A stretch of DNA of 64,000 bases from Vampirovibrionales bacterium (GTDB lineage Bacteria; Cyanobacteriota; Vampirovibrionia; Vampirovibrionales; Vampirovibrionaceae), in NCBI GenBank assembly GCA_029262635.1, contig JAJCZA010000017.1, positions 1 to 64,000 of the forward strand, given 5' to 3'. Shown here piece by piece: positions 16,309 to 23,807 of this stretch. A model generated the notes under the pieces. The model had not been told where the DNA came from and made no database searches. It saw nothing but the letters and a program-made list of their open reading frames with translations. Numbering within the stretch: position 1 is the first letter of the stretch; each line of letters starts with the position of its first letter. The translations under genes and the position numbers were made by a program.

Positions 16309-16372
16309 TAGTGCCCGGTCTCCATTTTTAATACCAGGTCGAGTTAGAGTAAAGGGATCATATCACAGCCCG
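16309..16372. mobile_element. Solo terminal end of an IS3-family element
   Basis: The stretch TTAATACCAGG...GAGTTAGAGTAA...GGGATCATATCACAGCC matches, base for base in long runs, the reverse complement of the right end of the intact IS (22,880-22,945). No transposase remains next to it. It marks a decayed copy or a deletion that stopped inside an IS. Confidence 0.75.
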
Positions 16373-16423
16373 GAGGGAGTTGATCGGTCCCCGAAATGGG
16401 TGCCATTTAAAAGTAGTTAAAAC

Positions 16424-16741
16424 CTATTGAGGTTCTAAACCATACACTCGAAACAATTTCAGTGCCTTCAAGGCGGCAGGCACATTGTAAACTAGACGCC
16501 CGTGGAAAGTGCTAAAGGAATGAAACAATTGCTTCTCCCCACCTATTAACCACAGAACTTCTAGATCATTTTCATCCAACCAACTTAAGAAAGCACTTTT
16601 CTTTATTAAAGCAAAAGATGGTCCTTCCTCGGCAACACTGGGGTCAAGGAAAATGCTTTCCCCTTGATCGTTGTGCCATAAACCAAAATTGCCTTTTGAG
16701 CGAGTAAGTTGAAAATCATCTATTAGTTCAGCAGCAGGCAT
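16424..16741 (-). CDS. Small hypothetical protein downstream of GHKL ATPase gene
   Basis: A 105-residue ORF with no ribosome binding site at its ATG. It starts 20 bases after the GHKL ATPase stop and continues the same transcript. The content (FLDPSVAEEGPSFALIKKSA, then ENDLEVLWLIGGEKQLF) looks like the C-terminal domain of a longer protein, because it begins mid-fold and its frame stays open upstream into the GHKL gene. It could be a genuine small partner or a 3' relic. A solo IS end lies just beyond its stop. Confidence 0.5.
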   Translation of the reverse strand: MPAAELIDDFQLTRSKGNFGLWHNDQGESIFLDPSVAEEGPSFALIKKSAFLSWLDENDLEVLWLIGGEKQLFHSFSTFHGRLVYNVPAALKALKLFRVYGLEPQ

Positions 16742-16761: not shown

Positions 16762-19104
16762 CTAATGAGAAGCGTCATTTACTGATTCGTGCAGGGAGTC
16801 AATAGTAGGTATTAAGAACGGAGCAATATAAGAACTGATTGCCTGTATGTCTTCAACAGTATAGTCTTCATTCTCATTCTTATTTTCAATACCGTTCAAT
16901 AAGCCCAGGCCTAGCAAAACCAAGCCGTATTTATATTGCCTCTCAATCGTGTCCACAGAATTTTTTTTCGCGACTTTCTCAGTCTGTAGATATATGTTGT
17001 CCATGTTAATAAAGAAGTCGTATCCATCGACACCAGCGTCTCGTACCTCTAGCGCTGTTTCCTCGTCATGATTATAGATTCCCCATTCATCCTTCCGTAC
17101 CTCTATAATATTCGGCAACGCTAAGCCTTCTGGACTTTTATCTGAATCCTTCTTGTCCCTTTCAGAAGGAGGTTTCCGCTTACCTTTTTCTCCTTTCCCA
17201 TGCTCCGTTTTTTGAATTACTTCAAGAGTAAATTCGCTTGAAAACGGTTCTGTTTGGGTAGGATCCGACACTTCAAGGGATAGGGTATAACTCATTCCTT
17301 TACTAGCAGTCTTTGGCAATGAAACATTTAACGTTCCATATCCATTCCACAAATTCATCTGAAAATCGGTATATTCTTCTCTATTTAGAAAGAGGGAAAT
17401 TTCACCAGAATGAGACTCACGGGAAAAATAATCGTTTCTGGCATCCGTCTTGTACTTAATTCTGCACCGCCTCATTTCTTCCACATTGCGAGGATTCTCT
17501 TTTGGGTACTCTTTCTCTAACATAAAGTACGTCGGAAACTCTTTACCTTCAAATTTTGTTTTATCTTTTCCACCGGTTGGGTTAACTGGATTTGTAATTT
17601 TCTTGCCTTGTATAAACAATTTATTCAATGTAGGCGATTTTTTCATAACTTTTTCTATGGCTTCTACAATAGGTTCATCATCTTCAGACTTACGATCCAA
17701 TAATTCTCTTCGGCGTTTATCTTTTAACTCTCGAAGACCAGCATGATTTGAAATCAGTTCCTCCAATTCACCCATAAGCTTTTTATACACTTCACCTTTA
17801 CGCAGACGGTCACGGCTATTCATGAACAAATCTTCTCGCGCTCTTCCTGGTATTTTCGAGCAGTCAACAATGACCAGTATTGAATCGGCAATATATGCCA
17901 TTCCCACAGACTTTTTCTTGAAAAACGTTTTCTCGGCATATCCATGGGTTTGTCCATTTATAGCAAAAAGTATCCCCTCCTTCGTAGTATATTTTTTATC
18001 TTGCCCCTCTTTAAACGCAACGAGTTTAACAGGTAACTCTAAACTTTCAAAATGTATCACTGCCGAAGTCGGAAAACCCTCTTCAACATTGCTGCGCTTA
18101 TCTTCCTCTATTCGTATATTTAGACCTGTTAAGGTTGTTTCAAGAGTGTGACCTGTATAGTCACGTCTCTCATACATTCTCACAGGAAGAGCTATTTCCG
18201 GCATCAGAAGCGAAAGCCTGTTATATAGGTCAAACAAAATATTTGTACGCAAAGATGCAGACATCTGGTAGTCATACAATTTGATAAACGCCCCCCCAGT
18301 AACTGGCATCCCATATGCATCAGAACTAGTCGGCGCCAACGGCAATTCGTCTGCTTCAAAGCGTAAAATCTTCCGTGACGGGGCTAAATACTTGTATACT
18401 GAACTTCTTACTTCACCGGATGGATCGAATCTACGTACAACCGTAAACCCCCAATATGTTGAAGAATCATCAACAAAACGGTCATCCTCTTTTAGAATCA
18501 ATGGGTTTCGCTTTGAAATGATCAACTGTACATTATGAACACCGCAAAATTGAAGAACTCCTGTTCCCCCCATATTAAACTTACCTTGCACAAAGGGGAT
18601 TCTTAACTTATTTGATTTGTTCAAAGATAAAAATGTATCGGGCATCTTATTCGGAGTTTGCCCTTCACCTTCATCTATAATCGTATAACAAGGTTTTGAT
18701 CTACTGCCTGTAGCAATGAGCTTGATATTTTCAGCTAACTCGTTTCTCTCTGACACCTGCAAATTTGTCAGACGCCCACTATAAATGCAAAAAAAATCTT
18801 CTAAAGCTGCGTAAATGGATGTTGGTGCTTTCTCTGTATTGAGAGGGTTAATTCCTTTTTCCATACACCCTCTCATCAGCAGGGCATCAACTGAATTAAT
18901 AATTTTTTCTACTAAAGCCGCGTCTGGACTACTCTGCTGATTTCCAATTGTCGAGAAGTTATTTTCATTGTACCCAAAGTCGATCCAGGCTGAAGGGTCT
19001 ACCCAATATCCTTCACGCTCAAGTATTTCAATAACCTCATCCTCGGATTCAGCTTTAGCAAGGTCAATACAGACTTCCCTATTCTTAATAAGCATCTCAG
19101 CCAT
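16762..19104 (-). CDS. GHKL (Hsp90-like) ATPase domain protein, candidate defence gene
   Basis: A 780-residue cytoplasmic protein. The N-terminal half carries the Bergerat ATP-binding motifs in order: N box EKIINSVDALL near residue 66, IIDEGEGQTP (DxGxG) near 148, and GKFNMGGTGVLQF (GxGxG lid) near 185. Residues ~330-440 resemble the transducer part (REDLFMNSRDRLRKGEVY). The rest is beta-rich with a Lys/Asp-rich linker near 655. GGAGTGGA precedes the ATG. It sits in a mobile cluster beside a recombinase and a broken reverse transcriptase, the kind of place where single-gene GHKL ATPase defence systems occur. Its target is unknown. Confidence 0.72.
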   Translation of the reverse strand: MAEMLIKNREVCIDLAKAESEDEVIEILEREGYWVDPSAWIDFGYNENNFSTIGNQQSSPDAALVEKIINSVDALLMRGCMEKGINPLNTEKAPTSIYAALEDFFCIYSGRLTNLQVSERNELAENIKLIATGSRSKPCYTIIDEGEGQTPNKMPDTFLSLNKSNKLRIPFVQGKFNMGGTGVLQFCGVHNVQLIISKRNPLILKEDDRFVDDSSTYWGFTVVRRFDPSGEVRSSVYKYLAPSRKILRFEADELPLAPTSSDAYGMPVTGGAFIKLYDYQMSASLRTNILFDLYNRLSLLMPEIALPVRMYERRDYTGHTLETTLTGLNIRIEEDKRSNVEEGFPTSAVIHFESLELPVKLVAFKEGQDKKYTTKEGILFAINGQTHGYAEKTFFKKKSVGMAYIADSILVIVDCSKIPGRAREDLFMNSRDRLRKGEVYKKLMGELEELISNHAGLRELKDKRRRELLDRKSEDDEPIVEAIEKVMKKSPTLNKLFIQGKKITNPVNPTGGKDKTKFEGKEFPTYFMLEKEYPKENPRNVEEMRRCRIKYKTDARNDYFSRESHSGEISLFLNREEYTDFQMNLWNGYGTLNVSLPKTASKGMSYTLSLEVSDPTQTEPFSSEFTLEVIQKTEHGKGEKGKRKPPSERDKKDSDKSPEGLALPNIIEVRKDEWGIYNHDEETALEVRDAGVDGYDFFINMDNIYLQTEKVAKKNSVDTIERQYKYGLVLLGLGLLNGIENKNENEDYTVEDIQAISSYIAPFLIPTIDSLHESVNDASH

Positions 19105-19221
19105 ATTCCACTCCAGTTCTTGTCAGTTCTCTACAAATCCCTGCACGATAACACAGGATCGGCACAATATGGCTCAGTATACCACGTGCACAAAACACCT
19201 GAAGACCAAGCCAGAAGATAG

Positions 19222-19263
19222 TGGGCCTAGCAGGGCTTGAACCTGCAACCAAGGGATTATGAT
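19222..19263 (-). tRNA. Orphan 3' half of a tRNA-Met(CAT), att-like
   Basis: On the minus strand the sequence reads anticodon loop with CAT, 3' anticodon stem TCCCT, TGGTT variable loop, T arm GCAGG-TTCAAGC-CCTGC and acceptor TAGGCCC-A. Nothing pairs on the 5' side: the D arm and 5' acceptor are absent. It is therefore not a functional tRNA but the 3' segment left at one end of an integrated element. Confidence 0.75.
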
Positions 19264-19361
19264 TTTTGTTGGATTAGCCTTGGAAACCCCTAACCGGGAT
19301 ATTATAACGTTTGGAGAATGGCATAGGTTACAATCGCGAACTAGACTTTTGTAGCAGCCAT

Positions 19362-19523: not shown

Positions 19524-19568
19524 CTGAAAATCCTTGTGTCCCCAGTTCAAATCTGGGAGGAGCCACCA
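19524..19568 (+). tRNA. Orphan 3' half of a tRNA-Phe(GAA), att-like, with CCA
   Basis: The plus strand reads the anticodon loop CTGAAAA, TCCTT stem, TGTGTC variable part, T arm CCCAG-TTCAAAT-CTGGG, acceptor AGGAGCC and encoded ACCA. The matching 5' acceptor (GGCTCCT) is absent upstream. It is a 3' half broken at the anticodon loop, as expected at the far end of an element that integrated in tRNA-Phe. By polarity that element lies to the left and its intact tRNA lies outside the window. Confidence 0.8.
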
Positions 19569-19605: not shown

Positions 19606-19817
19606 GCGTTTTGAGGTTGTTTGAGATAATGGATATACGGGGCTGAAAAGGGTCTTATTGCTCGATGGAGCAAAGTAGTGTTTGTTCTTTGCTCTACCCA
19701 TATATATCGATTATCAAGCGCCTCTTTGTGTCCCATTGTGTCTGGAGTCTGGATAAGGAACTGGGTTGGAGCAATAAATGGGGTGTCCTACCGTTAAGTA
19801 AAAGGAGCCTTGAACAC

Positions 19818-20777
19818 ATGCCTCGGATTTACGAACGAAAACGAATGTTACCCCCGGAGTGGTGGTCACCTGAACTACAGCAATACTTTGAGCTCTGGTG
19901 CCTCGATATGCAGCAAGGCATGCGTCCTTACACACCGGTGACGGTTCGAACCTTCAAGCGTCGATTCATCCTCTATACTCGCCTCGGCTGGGAAGCGAGT
20001 CCACCCAAAGCGCTCAGTCTGACAGAAGTTTTTAATCCGACCCAAGTTTACCGGGTTCTGAGTAGCTACCCGATAGAAAGCTTCTCAAACCGACATAATA
20101 TGCTGTATAGCCTGGTCAGTTTTGCGAGATTTCTTGTCGCCTTAGGCCTTGTGGAAAACAGCCTTATTGATAAACTTCGGAAATTCCGCCCTAAACGGGT
20201 CATTCCCGCTCGAAAAACCGTCCTCAAAAACGAAAATCAAATCGAAGCCTTACGTCAGGCCATTCAAACCGGAAATTATATTTCCACTTACAGCCGAATT
20301 TTAGATGAGACCATCGTAGAAACCATCATGTACACCGGAATCCGAAACGCCGAACTGTGCCAGCTGAATTTAGAAGATGTAGACTTTAAAGAAAACGTGA
20401 TTCATATTCGATTGGGAAAAGGCCGAAAGGATCGAAAGGTGGGTCTGTCACAGACGCTTCGTCCTATCTTGCTCAAATACTTAAAAGAACGCCAACTCAA
20501 AGCAAACCTTGAGCCCACAGCCTTTTTCATTAATCGCCGAGGAACAAGAATTAAAACTGCCGATATGACCCGTCGCTTCATGCGTTTCTCAAAACGCATG
20601 GGACTCTCCATCACTCCTCATGGACTCCGCCGAACCTTCGCCACCCGCCATGCCGAAAACGGCAAGCCCCTGCACCTCATCCAAAAAGCCCTTGGCCACA
20701 CCGATATTCGAACTACCCAAGGCTATCTTATGTCCGACGAAAAGGCAGTAATCGATGCTATGAAAGACTGGGATTAA
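19818..20777 (+). CDS. XerC/D-like tyrosine recombinase (integrase)
   Basis: I start it at the ATG at 19,818 with AAAGGAG upstream; the track start at 19,665 precedes the terminator region. The 319-residue protein has an N-terminal SAM-like domain (~25-120) and a catalytic domain with all key residues: Arg in TGIRNAELCQ, Lys in LGKGRKDRKV, HGLRRTFATRH (HxxR), LGHTDIRTTQGY with His and the Tyr nucleophile. It sits about 250 bp after an orphan tRNA-Phe half and between two tRNA-Met halves, so it probably mediated one of these insertions. Confidence 0.9.
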   Translation: MPRIYERKRMLPPEWWSPELQQYFELWCLDMQQGMRPYTPVTVRTFKRRFILYTRLGWEASPPKALSLTEVFNPTQVYRVLSSYPIESFSNRHNMLYSLVSFARFLVALGLVENSLIDKLRKFRPKRVIPARKTVLKNENQIEALRQAIQTGNYISTYSRILDETIVETIMYTGIRNAELCQLNLEDVDFKENVIHIRLGKGRKDRKVGLSQTLRPILLKYLKERQLKANLEPTAFFINRRGTRIKTADMTRRFMRFSKRMGLSITPHGLRRTFATRHAENGKPLHLIQKALGHTDIRTTQGYLMSDEKAVIDAMKDWD

Positions 20778-20988
20778 GCACTCAACTAAAGACCTCAAAT
20801 CCGGTTCGAATCTTACTGGAACCGCATACTCTCATAGGCTTGTTTAGGGTTTGGCTTTTTGGTGTTAAAGGTTTTATCGCAGTTACGTCACAATAGCTCG
20901 TGACAAAGAACTTGCTCATACTTTACTTCTTCTATTTTAAATAAGTTAACATTATAAAAAGCATACTATTTATGGATACACTTAGATA

Positions 20989-21709
20989 ATGAGTTTTAAT
21001 GGAGTTACAATTGAGCATATTTGTTCTGTTTACAAGCTATTAAAGACCTATGCTTATTTTGAGAATTTGAATCTGTTCCTGAAGGAGCGTGTTGCTACCT
21101 TTGAAAAATCTTATATTACAGATATAGTTAATTCAAAAGATATAACTAACTCAAAAAAATTAAAATATAACCTTAAAAAATTTACAAAAGACATTAAAAA
21201 TAAAGCAGACCACCCCTTTAACAAAATAGCAAATGTTTTAAATAGTAAAAGTCCATTAAAGCACCCTGATTTTAAAGCTTGGTTAGAGGATATTGATTTT
21301 CGATTATATTTTAAGGGGTTTGAAAATGAGGGTGAAAATAGTAAGAAAACAGGAACGTTTTTAACGAATAGAAAAACAAAAAACGAGTATATTGTTAACA
21401 AAGTAAACTATTTTATCGATGCACCTATAGAGCTCCATATTTTAGAGATCTTATGGACTGTTCTGGTTGGAAAAAAGCTTGACGATACTTTTAGAAGTAG
21501 TTGCTTTGGTAATCGTTTAAGTGAGCATACTAAACGTTACCCTGACAGCTTTTATAAAGGTTCTATAAATCCAAAAAACTTTCAAGGAGAATTGTTCAAG
21601 CGATATGTTGAACAATATAAAGACTGGAGAGATGGAGCATTAAAAACGGCGAGTTCTATAGTAGAAGAGTCTGATTCTAATCTTGCAATCTTTTCTTTAG
21701 ATATAAAAT
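20989..21709 (+). pseudogene. Reverse transcriptase-like gene cut by an IS after motif A
   Basis: The first ~240 codons of the track ORF end exactly where the IS begins at 21,710. The preserved part has NRLSEHTKRYPD and ends LFKRYVEQYKDWRDGALKTA...LAIFSLDIK. The 'FSLDIK' with the catalytic Asp, preceded by a DWRD...A segment, is the motif A context of bacterial defence-associated reverse transcriptases (DRT/AbiA-like). All downstream motifs, including YxDD, are missing; the IS supplies the terminal residues of the track translation. I did not find the 3' part beyond the IS, so a deletion followed insertion. Base composition is strongly AT-rich. Confidence 0.55.
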
Positions 21710-21781
21710 TGACGTGCTCCCCAAAATTGTTACCAGGGGTTGTTAGAGATTTCCGTAAAATAGAGTCAAAGGAGATCTCGA

Positions 21782-22048
21782 ATGAAACCCAAACGATTTA
21801 CCGAAGAACAAATAGTCAGAACCCTGCAAGAACTGGAAGCAGGCGGCATTACGCTTGCTGAAAAAGCCCGAAAGCTTGGCTGCTCGGAAAGCACTATTTA
21901 CCTGTGGAAAAAGAAATACGGCGGACTCGAAGTACAAGACGTCAAAGAGCTGCGTGATTTACGTCAGGAAAACAACCGACTCAAGCAGATGGTGGCCAAT
22001 CTCATGCTGGAAAAAGAGGCCATTGCCGAAGCCTTAAAAAAGCTCTGA
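21782..22048 (+). CDS. IS3-family OrfA (HTH, leucine zipper)
   Basis: The 88-residue protein has the IS3 HTH (RFTEEQIVRTLQELEAGGIT, then LGCSESTIYLWKKKYGG) followed by a coiled coil (LRDLRQENNRLKQMVANLML). It provides end recognition and dimerisation. Near its end A-AAA-AAG at 22,036-22,042 is a classic -1 slippery heptamer; slippage there joins it directly to the OrfB frame to give the OrfAB transposase. Confidence 0.92.
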   Translation: MKPKRFTEEQIVRTLQELEAGGITLAEKARKLGCSESTIYLWKKKYGGLEVQDVKELRDLRQENNRLKQMVANLMLEKEAIAEALKKL

Positions 22049-22068
22049 GCCCAGATACACGAAAAATA

Positions 22069-22899
22069 GTGGTTGAGACGCTGGTCAACAAAGGATTGTC
22101 TCAACGGCAAAGTTGTCGGTTAATCGGGTTGTCACGTGTGGCCGCCCGATATCAGCCGTCACTAGCCAATGAACCATTGGAGGTCAGAATGAAAGAACTG
22201 GCACTAACTTACAACCGTTACGGTTACCGGCGTATCTGGGCATTGTTAAAACGTGAAGGATGGATGGTGAATCTCAAACGCATCTGGCGCTTGTGGAAAA
22301 AGCATCAGTTGCAAGTACCCAAAAAGAAACGGCGTAGAAGACGTCAGGGCAGTATTAATCCCTTATTTCCTAAAAAAGCACTCGCGCCGAATCATATTTG
22401 GACGTTGGATTTCGTTCATGATTCTTTGCGTCATGGGCGGCGAATCCGCATGTTGACAGTGGTGGACGAATTTACCCGAGAAGCACTGAATATTCATGTG
22501 GATTATTCTTTAAAGTCACATGATGTCCAGCAGGTACTGGAATCGCTATTTAACCAACGCGGGGCACCGTGTTATTTACGCAGTGACAATGGTTCTGAAT
22601 TTATTGAAAGGGCATTGAACAAGTGGTTAAAGCAGCAAGGCACTCAGCCGATATTTATTACGCCTGGCAGTCCTTGGGAAAACGGTAAGTGCGAAAGTTT
22701 TAACGGCAAGCTTCGTGATGAGTGTCTGAATGCCCATTGGTTCCAGACAATGCGGGAAGCGCGAGTACTCATTGAAATGTGGCGAAAGCAGTACAATACG
22801 TTTCGCCCTCATCGGTCGTTACGCTACGCGACACCGGTTGAATTCGCCGCCCGTTGGTATTCTACGAATACCAACCCTCCCCCGCAGGCTGTGATATGA
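22069..22899 (+). CDS. IS3-family OrfB transposase (DDE)
   Basis: The frame reads LDFVHDSLR with the first catalytic Asp, SDNGSEFIE with the second and GSPWENGKCESFNGKLRDE with the Glu. The N-terminal segment (YNRYGYRRIWALLKREGWMV) is the IS3 DNA-binding HTH_21 region. Frame analysis shows a -1 slip at AAAAAAG in orfA fuses straight into this frame upstream of the GTG at 22,069, so the active product is OrfAB; the GTG is the track's start. The gene is intact, so the IS may still move. Confidence 0.92.
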   Translation: MVETLVNKGLSQRQSCRLIGLSRVAARYQPSLANEPLEVRMKELALTYNRYGYRRIWALLKREGWMVNLKRIWRLWKKHQLQVPKKKRRRRRQGSINPLFPKKALAPNHIWTLDFVHDSLRHGRRIRMLTVVDEFTREALNIHVDYSLKSHDVQQVLESLFNQRGAPCYLRSDNGSEFIERALNKWLKQQGTQPIFITPGSPWENGKCESFNGKLRDECLNAHWFQTMREARVLIEMWRKQYNTFRPHRSLRYATPVEFAARWYSTNTNPPPQAVI

Positions 22900-22960
22900 T
22901 CCCATTACTCTAATGCCACCTGGTATTAAAAAAGGGGACCAGTCACTTCCAACTCTAAAT

Positions 22961-23002
22961 ACCAAGAACCACCCAACTCTGAAAGCCTGATGGTTCTTGG
23001 TG
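22961..23002. repeat. Hairpin repeat copy 1
   Basis: CCAAGAACCA and TGGTTCTTGG form a perfect 10-bp inverted repeat around a 19-base loop. The 24 bases CTGAAAGCCTGATGGTTCTT...GGTG recur unchanged in copy 2 at 23,535-23,558. The pair flanks the tRNA-Met half. It may be a recombination site or a terminator-like hairpin. Confidence 0.55.
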
Positions 23003-23139
23003 AAGAGTAGCTAAAACCACTGTTGTTTTTTTGTGGGTATTTTTTTTAAAATTTTATCTAAAGGGGAGGCATAAGAACTTCTCACACACTGCGGGCCATT
23101 GAAGAAGGGGCGCATAGGGGTCAAAAAGAAGGGGGGGGG

Positions 23140-23208
23140 GTAAATCGATTTATCACCAATTGTTATACGCAAATGCGGGGAGAGTGCGGTAAATCATATT
23201 ATCACCTA
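23140..23208. promoter_or_regulatory. Paired GGTAAATC...TTATCACC motifs, candidate operators
   Basis: GGTAAATCGATTTATCACC contains the perfect 12-bp palindrome TAAATCGATTTA, and GGTAAATCATATTATCACC recurs 48 bp downstream. Two nearly symmetric copies with the same flanks are typical of a repressor's paired operators. No adjacent regulator gene is obvious. Confidence 0.4.
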
Positions 23209-23240
23209 GGACGCAAACCCTAAAATCAAGTTATAGAGAG

Positions 23241-23287
23241 TGGGCCCAGTAGGATTTGAACCTACAACCAAGGGATTATGAGTTCCT
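23241..23287 (-). tRNA. Second orphan tRNA-Met(CAT) 3' half, att-like
   Basis: On the minus strand: AGGAA, loop CTCATAA, TCCCT, TGGTT, T arm GTAGG-TTCAAAT-CCTAC and acceptor TGGGCCC-A. The 5' anticodon stem keeps only four of five pairs and the D arm and 5' acceptor are missing. It is the same isoacceptor half as 19,222-19,263, in the same orientation. The two copies bracket 4 kb with the recombinase, reverse transcriptase remnant and IS. Confidence 0.75.
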
Positions 23288-23523
23288 GATATTTTTAAAA
23301 GTAGTAATGGAGGTATACTAATTTTATATATTTTTATTTTTTTTCACCGTTCAAAACTCAGGCAAGGGGCTCTCCCGTGGAGAGCGTCGACGAAAGAAGG
23401 GATCGCACCGGGTCGAAAAAAGGCGGGGGGTACCTCCCGTTTTTAACAGAAGCCCGCACACCAAAAAAGTGCAAATTTTATCCTCTTGCACTTCCACTAC
23501 ACTTCCAGGCAAAAATACAAAAA

Positions 23524-23560
23524 ACCACCAAGCGCTGAAAGCCTGATGGTTCTTGGTGGA
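23524..23560. repeat. Hairpin repeat copy 2
   Basis: CCACCAAG and CTTGGTGG form a perfect 8-bp stem around 19 bases. It shares 24 identical bases with copy 1 at 22,961. Located ~250 bp before hsdM. Confidence 0.55.
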
Positions 23561-23807
23561 GGAAGATTGACTCGGTTCGAACCAATTACTATGCCGATGT
23601 TATAGAGTTTGGACAGTATGCTAAAGCTGTAGAAAGCAGTTTAAACTTTAATTTAGCTTAGCGTTTTATTTTTGAAATCATTTAGGGGGAAACGCTACTT
23701 GCTAACTCAAGACCTTTTTTATATATAGGAAGGAAGAGTTTATGTTTCGGGTGTTTTTACTTTATAATAAAAGATTCGTTTAGTATCAATGAGTGAAATG
23801 AGTCTTT

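Follow-up and report, generated by a model that had tools for sequence, protein, structure and literature searches.

A UG5-family reverse transcriptase gene broken at motif A beside an IS3-family element in a Vampirovibrionales genome

In the window analysed here, a stretch of 64,000 nucleotides of Vampirovibrionales DNA, one reading frame begins as a reverse transcriptase (RT) and stops at the border of an insertion sequence (IS), which raises the questions of what gene once stood at this locus, how it was cut and what has become of the rest. A first-pass annotation had read the frame as a probable defence-type, DRT/AbiA-like RT cut right after motif A, with its catalytic half gone and the system recently disabled.

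Identity of the reverse transcriptase fragment

Translation from the ATG at 20989 gives 240 RT codons without a stop, the last of them, K240, closing the FSLDIK motif and ending at 21708 (Table 1). The product carries DWRD at residues 212-215 and ends ...KDWRDGALKTASSIVEESDSNLAIFSLDIK, the arrangement that the first-pass annotation had described, and its open frame extends to 21861, adding ~50 IS-encoded residues. The HMM search which that annotation proposed returned an RT family: in a PADLOC profile search, residues 1-241 matched the UG5 models RT_UG5_small (4.2e-43) and RT_UG5-nitrilase (3.1e-41 and 4e-37), the small and nitrilase UG5 models giving near-equal scores. The assignment to RTs lies far above chance, with a tblastn match of 2e-26 to one full-length relative and a BLASTP match of 5e-27 to another, and the motif A expected of a UG5 RT is present with its catalytic Asp, the invariant D238. 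We identify the fragment, from its sequence, as the N-terminal region of a UG5-family defence-associated RT, a class 3 DRT; the UG5 HMMs and the alignment with relatives both support the reading of a defence-type RT that breaks off directly behind motif A.

Pfam and NCBIfam searches of the fragment gave no match, which probably reflects RT models built chiefly on the region absent here, and searches confined to Pfam or NCBIfam overlook RT remnants of this kind. The same silence would suit a frame that is not an RT and resembles its motifs by chance, a reading to which we assign practically no probability; it is refuted by the UG5 HMM score (E 4e-43) and by homologues that carry YGRYVDD downstream, most of which score as RVT_1. 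PADLOC matched no AbiA model to the fragment at E<=1, nor to its full-length relatives at E<=1e-5, in a library that should contain AbiA models. Since the fragment is assigned to UG5, an AbiA identity is unlikely; of the DRT/AbiA-like label, the defence-type DRT part stands.

Table 1. Features at the RT locus, with positions in the window
Feature	Position	Strand	Evidence or remarks
5′ part of UG5-family defence RT gene, residues 1-240 including motif A FSLDIK	20989..21708	+	PADLOC RT_UG5_small 4.2e-43; alignment with full-length relatives
Motif A FSLDIK	21691..21708	+	catalytic-type Asp238 at 21700-21702, invariant in 7-sequence alignment
IS3-family insertion sequence, 1236 bp, ends TGACGTGCTCCCC...GGGGACCAGTCA	21710..22945	+	boundaries from other genome copies; NF033516 transpos_IS3
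IS3 OrfA (HTH_Tnp_1)	21782..22048	+	PF01527 6e-18
IS3 OrfB transposase (rve / rve_3), integrase core	22069..22899	+	PF13683 1.2e-28; NF033516 3.5e-72
IS right flank	22946..23807	.	no RT remainder; 62-nt repeat pair 22944-23005 / 23500-23561; tRNA-Met-like remnant 23235-23284
Tyrosine recombinase, upstream of RT fragment, same strand	19665..20777	+	PF00589 1.3e-37
3′ tRNA-Phe remnant upstream of integrase	19524..19568	+	45 bp identical to 3′ part of tRNA-Phe gene on contig C28

Full-length relatives and conservation

An alignment-based scan of genome contigs found 10 relatives of the fragment; a close-peptide scan of genome contigs with the fragment alone as query found nothing. Full-length UG5-nitrilase relatives from Pedobacter (L035, 984 aa), Gastranaerophilales (L038, 1062 aa), rumen (L041, 1011 aa) and Hydrocarboniphaga (L042, 986 aa) have RT_UG5-nitrilase as their best PADLOC model (7e-200 to 2e-274) and align with the fragment up to the junction at motif A. 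Beyond that point they continue with P(I/V)G...AN and YGRYVDD, the YxDD motif, followed by a C-terminal nitrilase. The first-pass annotation had held that homologues without a YxDD-containing downstream region would speak against its reading, and the full-length relatives have one. A profile of the family alignment matches both domains of DRT1 (PDB 9yfd), RT and nitrilase alike. We infer that the intact gene encoded ~1000 residues, with an RT and a C-terminal nitrilase, the nitrilase being deduced for this gene from relatives of 30-34% identity only.

The fragment retains 15 of the 18 columns that are invariant in six relatives, these columns having been defined on the relatives alone with the fragment excluded; the three changes are A14V, K17L and P108F. 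The claim that all alignment-invariant residues are kept was dropped as circular in favour of this relatives-only count.

Relatives of the fragment occur in four other genomes of a 386-genome sample of the phylum, of which three belong to the same class, and the locus adds one decayed UG5 case in this class, which holds Gastranaerophilales and Melainabacteria. Within the order, none of the 17 other genomes has a relative, and no intact copy was found at the same locus among the 18 genomes searched. Viral contigs and phage records yielded no relative, and a plasmid search gave two weak matches, both in E. coli and covering 40% of the query.

The IS3-family element and its copies

The element shows the features of the IS3 family, namely an OrfA with an HTH domain, an OrfB with a DDE integrase core and TGA...TCA inverted ends. 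Its left end at 21710 is marked by the copies in which contigs C13 and C27 terminate, whose shared sequence begins with TGACGTGC and gives way to unlike sequence on the outer side, and its right end at 22945 is fixed by copies at the starts of contigs C9 and C6; between copies, the ends are 99-100% identical over 139-142 bp. A single base lies between the codon end at 21708 and the start of the IS, which follows directly on the RT frame as had been annotated.

Several observations concern the element itself. OrfA scores as DrmC in PADLOC (8e-23), most likely through contamination of that model by transposase sequences, and a contaminated DrmC model could yield false DISARM calls. A 70-bp fragment at 16310-16379 on the minus strand, near an Avs2-like ORF, matches the IS right end at 85% identity and appears to be an older remnant of the same kind of element. 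Two other junctions of the IS, at the start of C6 (L026) and the end of C27 (L025), are flanked by long ORFs. By reading only, the first resembles a phage portal protein and the second a large virion protein of a phage, interrupted by the IS.

How the gene was cut

A plain IS3 insertion is expected to leave a target duplication of 3-4 bp and to have the remainder of the gene on its other side. The IS is flanked by AAT on the left and CTT on the right, with neither a target-site duplication nor a shared short repeat, a lack that concerns the history of this copy and not the family of the element; its right flank is unrelated to RTs and contains no RT sequence. DNA was therefore lost or rearranged at the IS, and the picture of a simple insertion gives way to one of IS-linked loss. 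The 3′ part of the RT gene would have been removed by a deletion adjoining the IS or by recombination between IS copies, and such an IS-linked loss is most likely, rather than a plain insertion. In a two-step variant, simple transposition into the gene came first and a separate, later deletion took the 3′ half, which would agree with an IS that lies inside the reading frame and has intact ends; we consider this variant unlikely, if worth keeping in view, given that no RT 3′ remnant lies to the right of the IS and that a single IS-linked event needs fewer steps. The one-event and two-step routes are indistinguishable without an intermediate.

Four contigs, C13, C27, C9 and C6, each have one edge that lies 139-142 bp within the IS. 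Because contigs break inside this multicopy element, the path through it at this locus, and with it the way its two flanks are joined here, may be the assembler's choice, and for this reason every IS junction that the assembly contains was read, three at the left end and three at the right. None encodes an RT remainder, and pairing the six ends by target-site duplication gave no matching pair. Were the order of RT, IS and right flank a misjoin at a collapsed repeat, an intact gene would exist in the actual genome, or in a fraction of the population that was sampled, and the multicopy IS, the contig breaks within it and the missing duplication at the junction would all fit. We nevertheless regard a misjoin as improbable, since left and right IS ends are equal in number, no right flank encodes the RT remainder, genome-wide searches with the family and with a full-length protein find no other piece, and the RT frame would still run into the left end of the IS. 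Whichever way the known IS ends are paired, the gene is truncated, unless the other half sits in an assembly gap, where it could lie; genome completeness is 95.9%.

Genomic surroundings

The fragment sits in a defence-rich, recombinase-rich stretch. The tyrosine recombinase precedes it, while a type I restriction system lies downstream together with a Fic protein. GC content is ~30% over 20800-21599 and rises to 44-46% in the IS and the integrase on either side. The tRNA-Phe remnant is a possible attachment-site scar, as are the two tRNA-Met-like remnants on either side of the locus (19216-19265 and 23235-23284, 86% alike), a pair too diverged for a recent attL/attR call. The low GC and the defence, recombinase and tRNA-remnant surroundings fit a horizontal acquisition of the RT gene. 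No credible Rfam match was found in the RT locus. The two copies of the 62-nt direct repeat are 82% alike, with a hairpin-like ACCAAGAACCACC...GGTTCTTGGT inside.

Further upstream, a 105-aa ORF at 16424-16741 on the minus strand has a match confined to the C terminus of Avs2 (PADLOC 2e-21, profile 1392-1479 of 1504) and may be either an Avs2 tail that became detached or a domain that is shared. It adjoins a 780-aa ORF (16762-19104) that has no significant PADLOC, Pfam or NCBIfam match.

State of the gene and age of the loss

About three quarters of the RT protein is missing. The YxDD motif and the remaining RT core are absent both beside the fragment and elsewhere in the genome, where a full-length relative used as query found this fragment only and the UG5 family model gave no second match beyond it, in agreement with the earlier view that the catalytic half is gone. 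Lacking these parts, the feature is therefore classed as a pseudogene, a broken gene of the UG5 family and not a working member. The fragment should be inactive because it has neither YxDD, with its Asp-Asp, nor the nitrilase effector. That a truncated product of 240 residues plus the ~50 encoded by the IS is still expressed and has a separate role, such as regulating another defence protein or interacting with it, is very improbable. We are highly confident in explaining the locus as a pseudogene in which an IS3-family element has cut a UG5 gene, probably of horizontal origin, at motif A, leaving its 5′ quarter while the rest was lost.

As for the statement that the system was recently disabled, a disabled state agrees with the missing YxDD and effector. 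A recent loss is plausible because the IS ends are nearly identical between copies, the frame is still open and most conserved residues are kept; it cannot be dated, since no close relative is available. IS-linked loss of a defence gene in a defence-rich region is common and expected, and the RT fragment is an ordinary pseudogene.

Comparison with known systems

AbiA-like RTs share with the fragment a place among defence-associated UG/Abi RTs in the broad sense, but differ in that AbiA models are missing from the PADLOC matches of both the fragment and its full-length relatives. Its 240 residues instead match the PADLOC models of UG5 RTs, with motif A and most invariant residues kept; unlike such RTs, it has neither YxDD nor the remaining RT, nor any nitrilase, the gene having been cut by the IS. 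The Gastranaerophilales and Pedobacter UG5-nitrilase proteins L038 and L035 are homologous over nearly the whole fragment, at 34% and 32% identity, respectively, but are intact, at their full 1062 and 984 aa.

Class 3 DRTs, including purified DRT5S and DRT5L, make template-free, protein-primed DNA (PMC13275509), and the UG5 families of PADLOC are probably the DRT5S and DRT5L of that work. DRT1 acts by abortive infection and requires the Asp-Asp of its RT and the Cys of its nitrilase, whereas its priming site, Ser402, is reported not to be conserved in other class 3 DRTs (PMC13275509). By analogy with DRT1, the product of the intact gene would make protein-primed DNA and stop phage growth by abortive infection. 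DRT1 belongs to another family, as a UG1 RT-nitrilase of 1229 aa, but shares the class 3 RT-nitrilase design, both of its domains being matched by the UG5 family profile, and it provides the solved example of that design.
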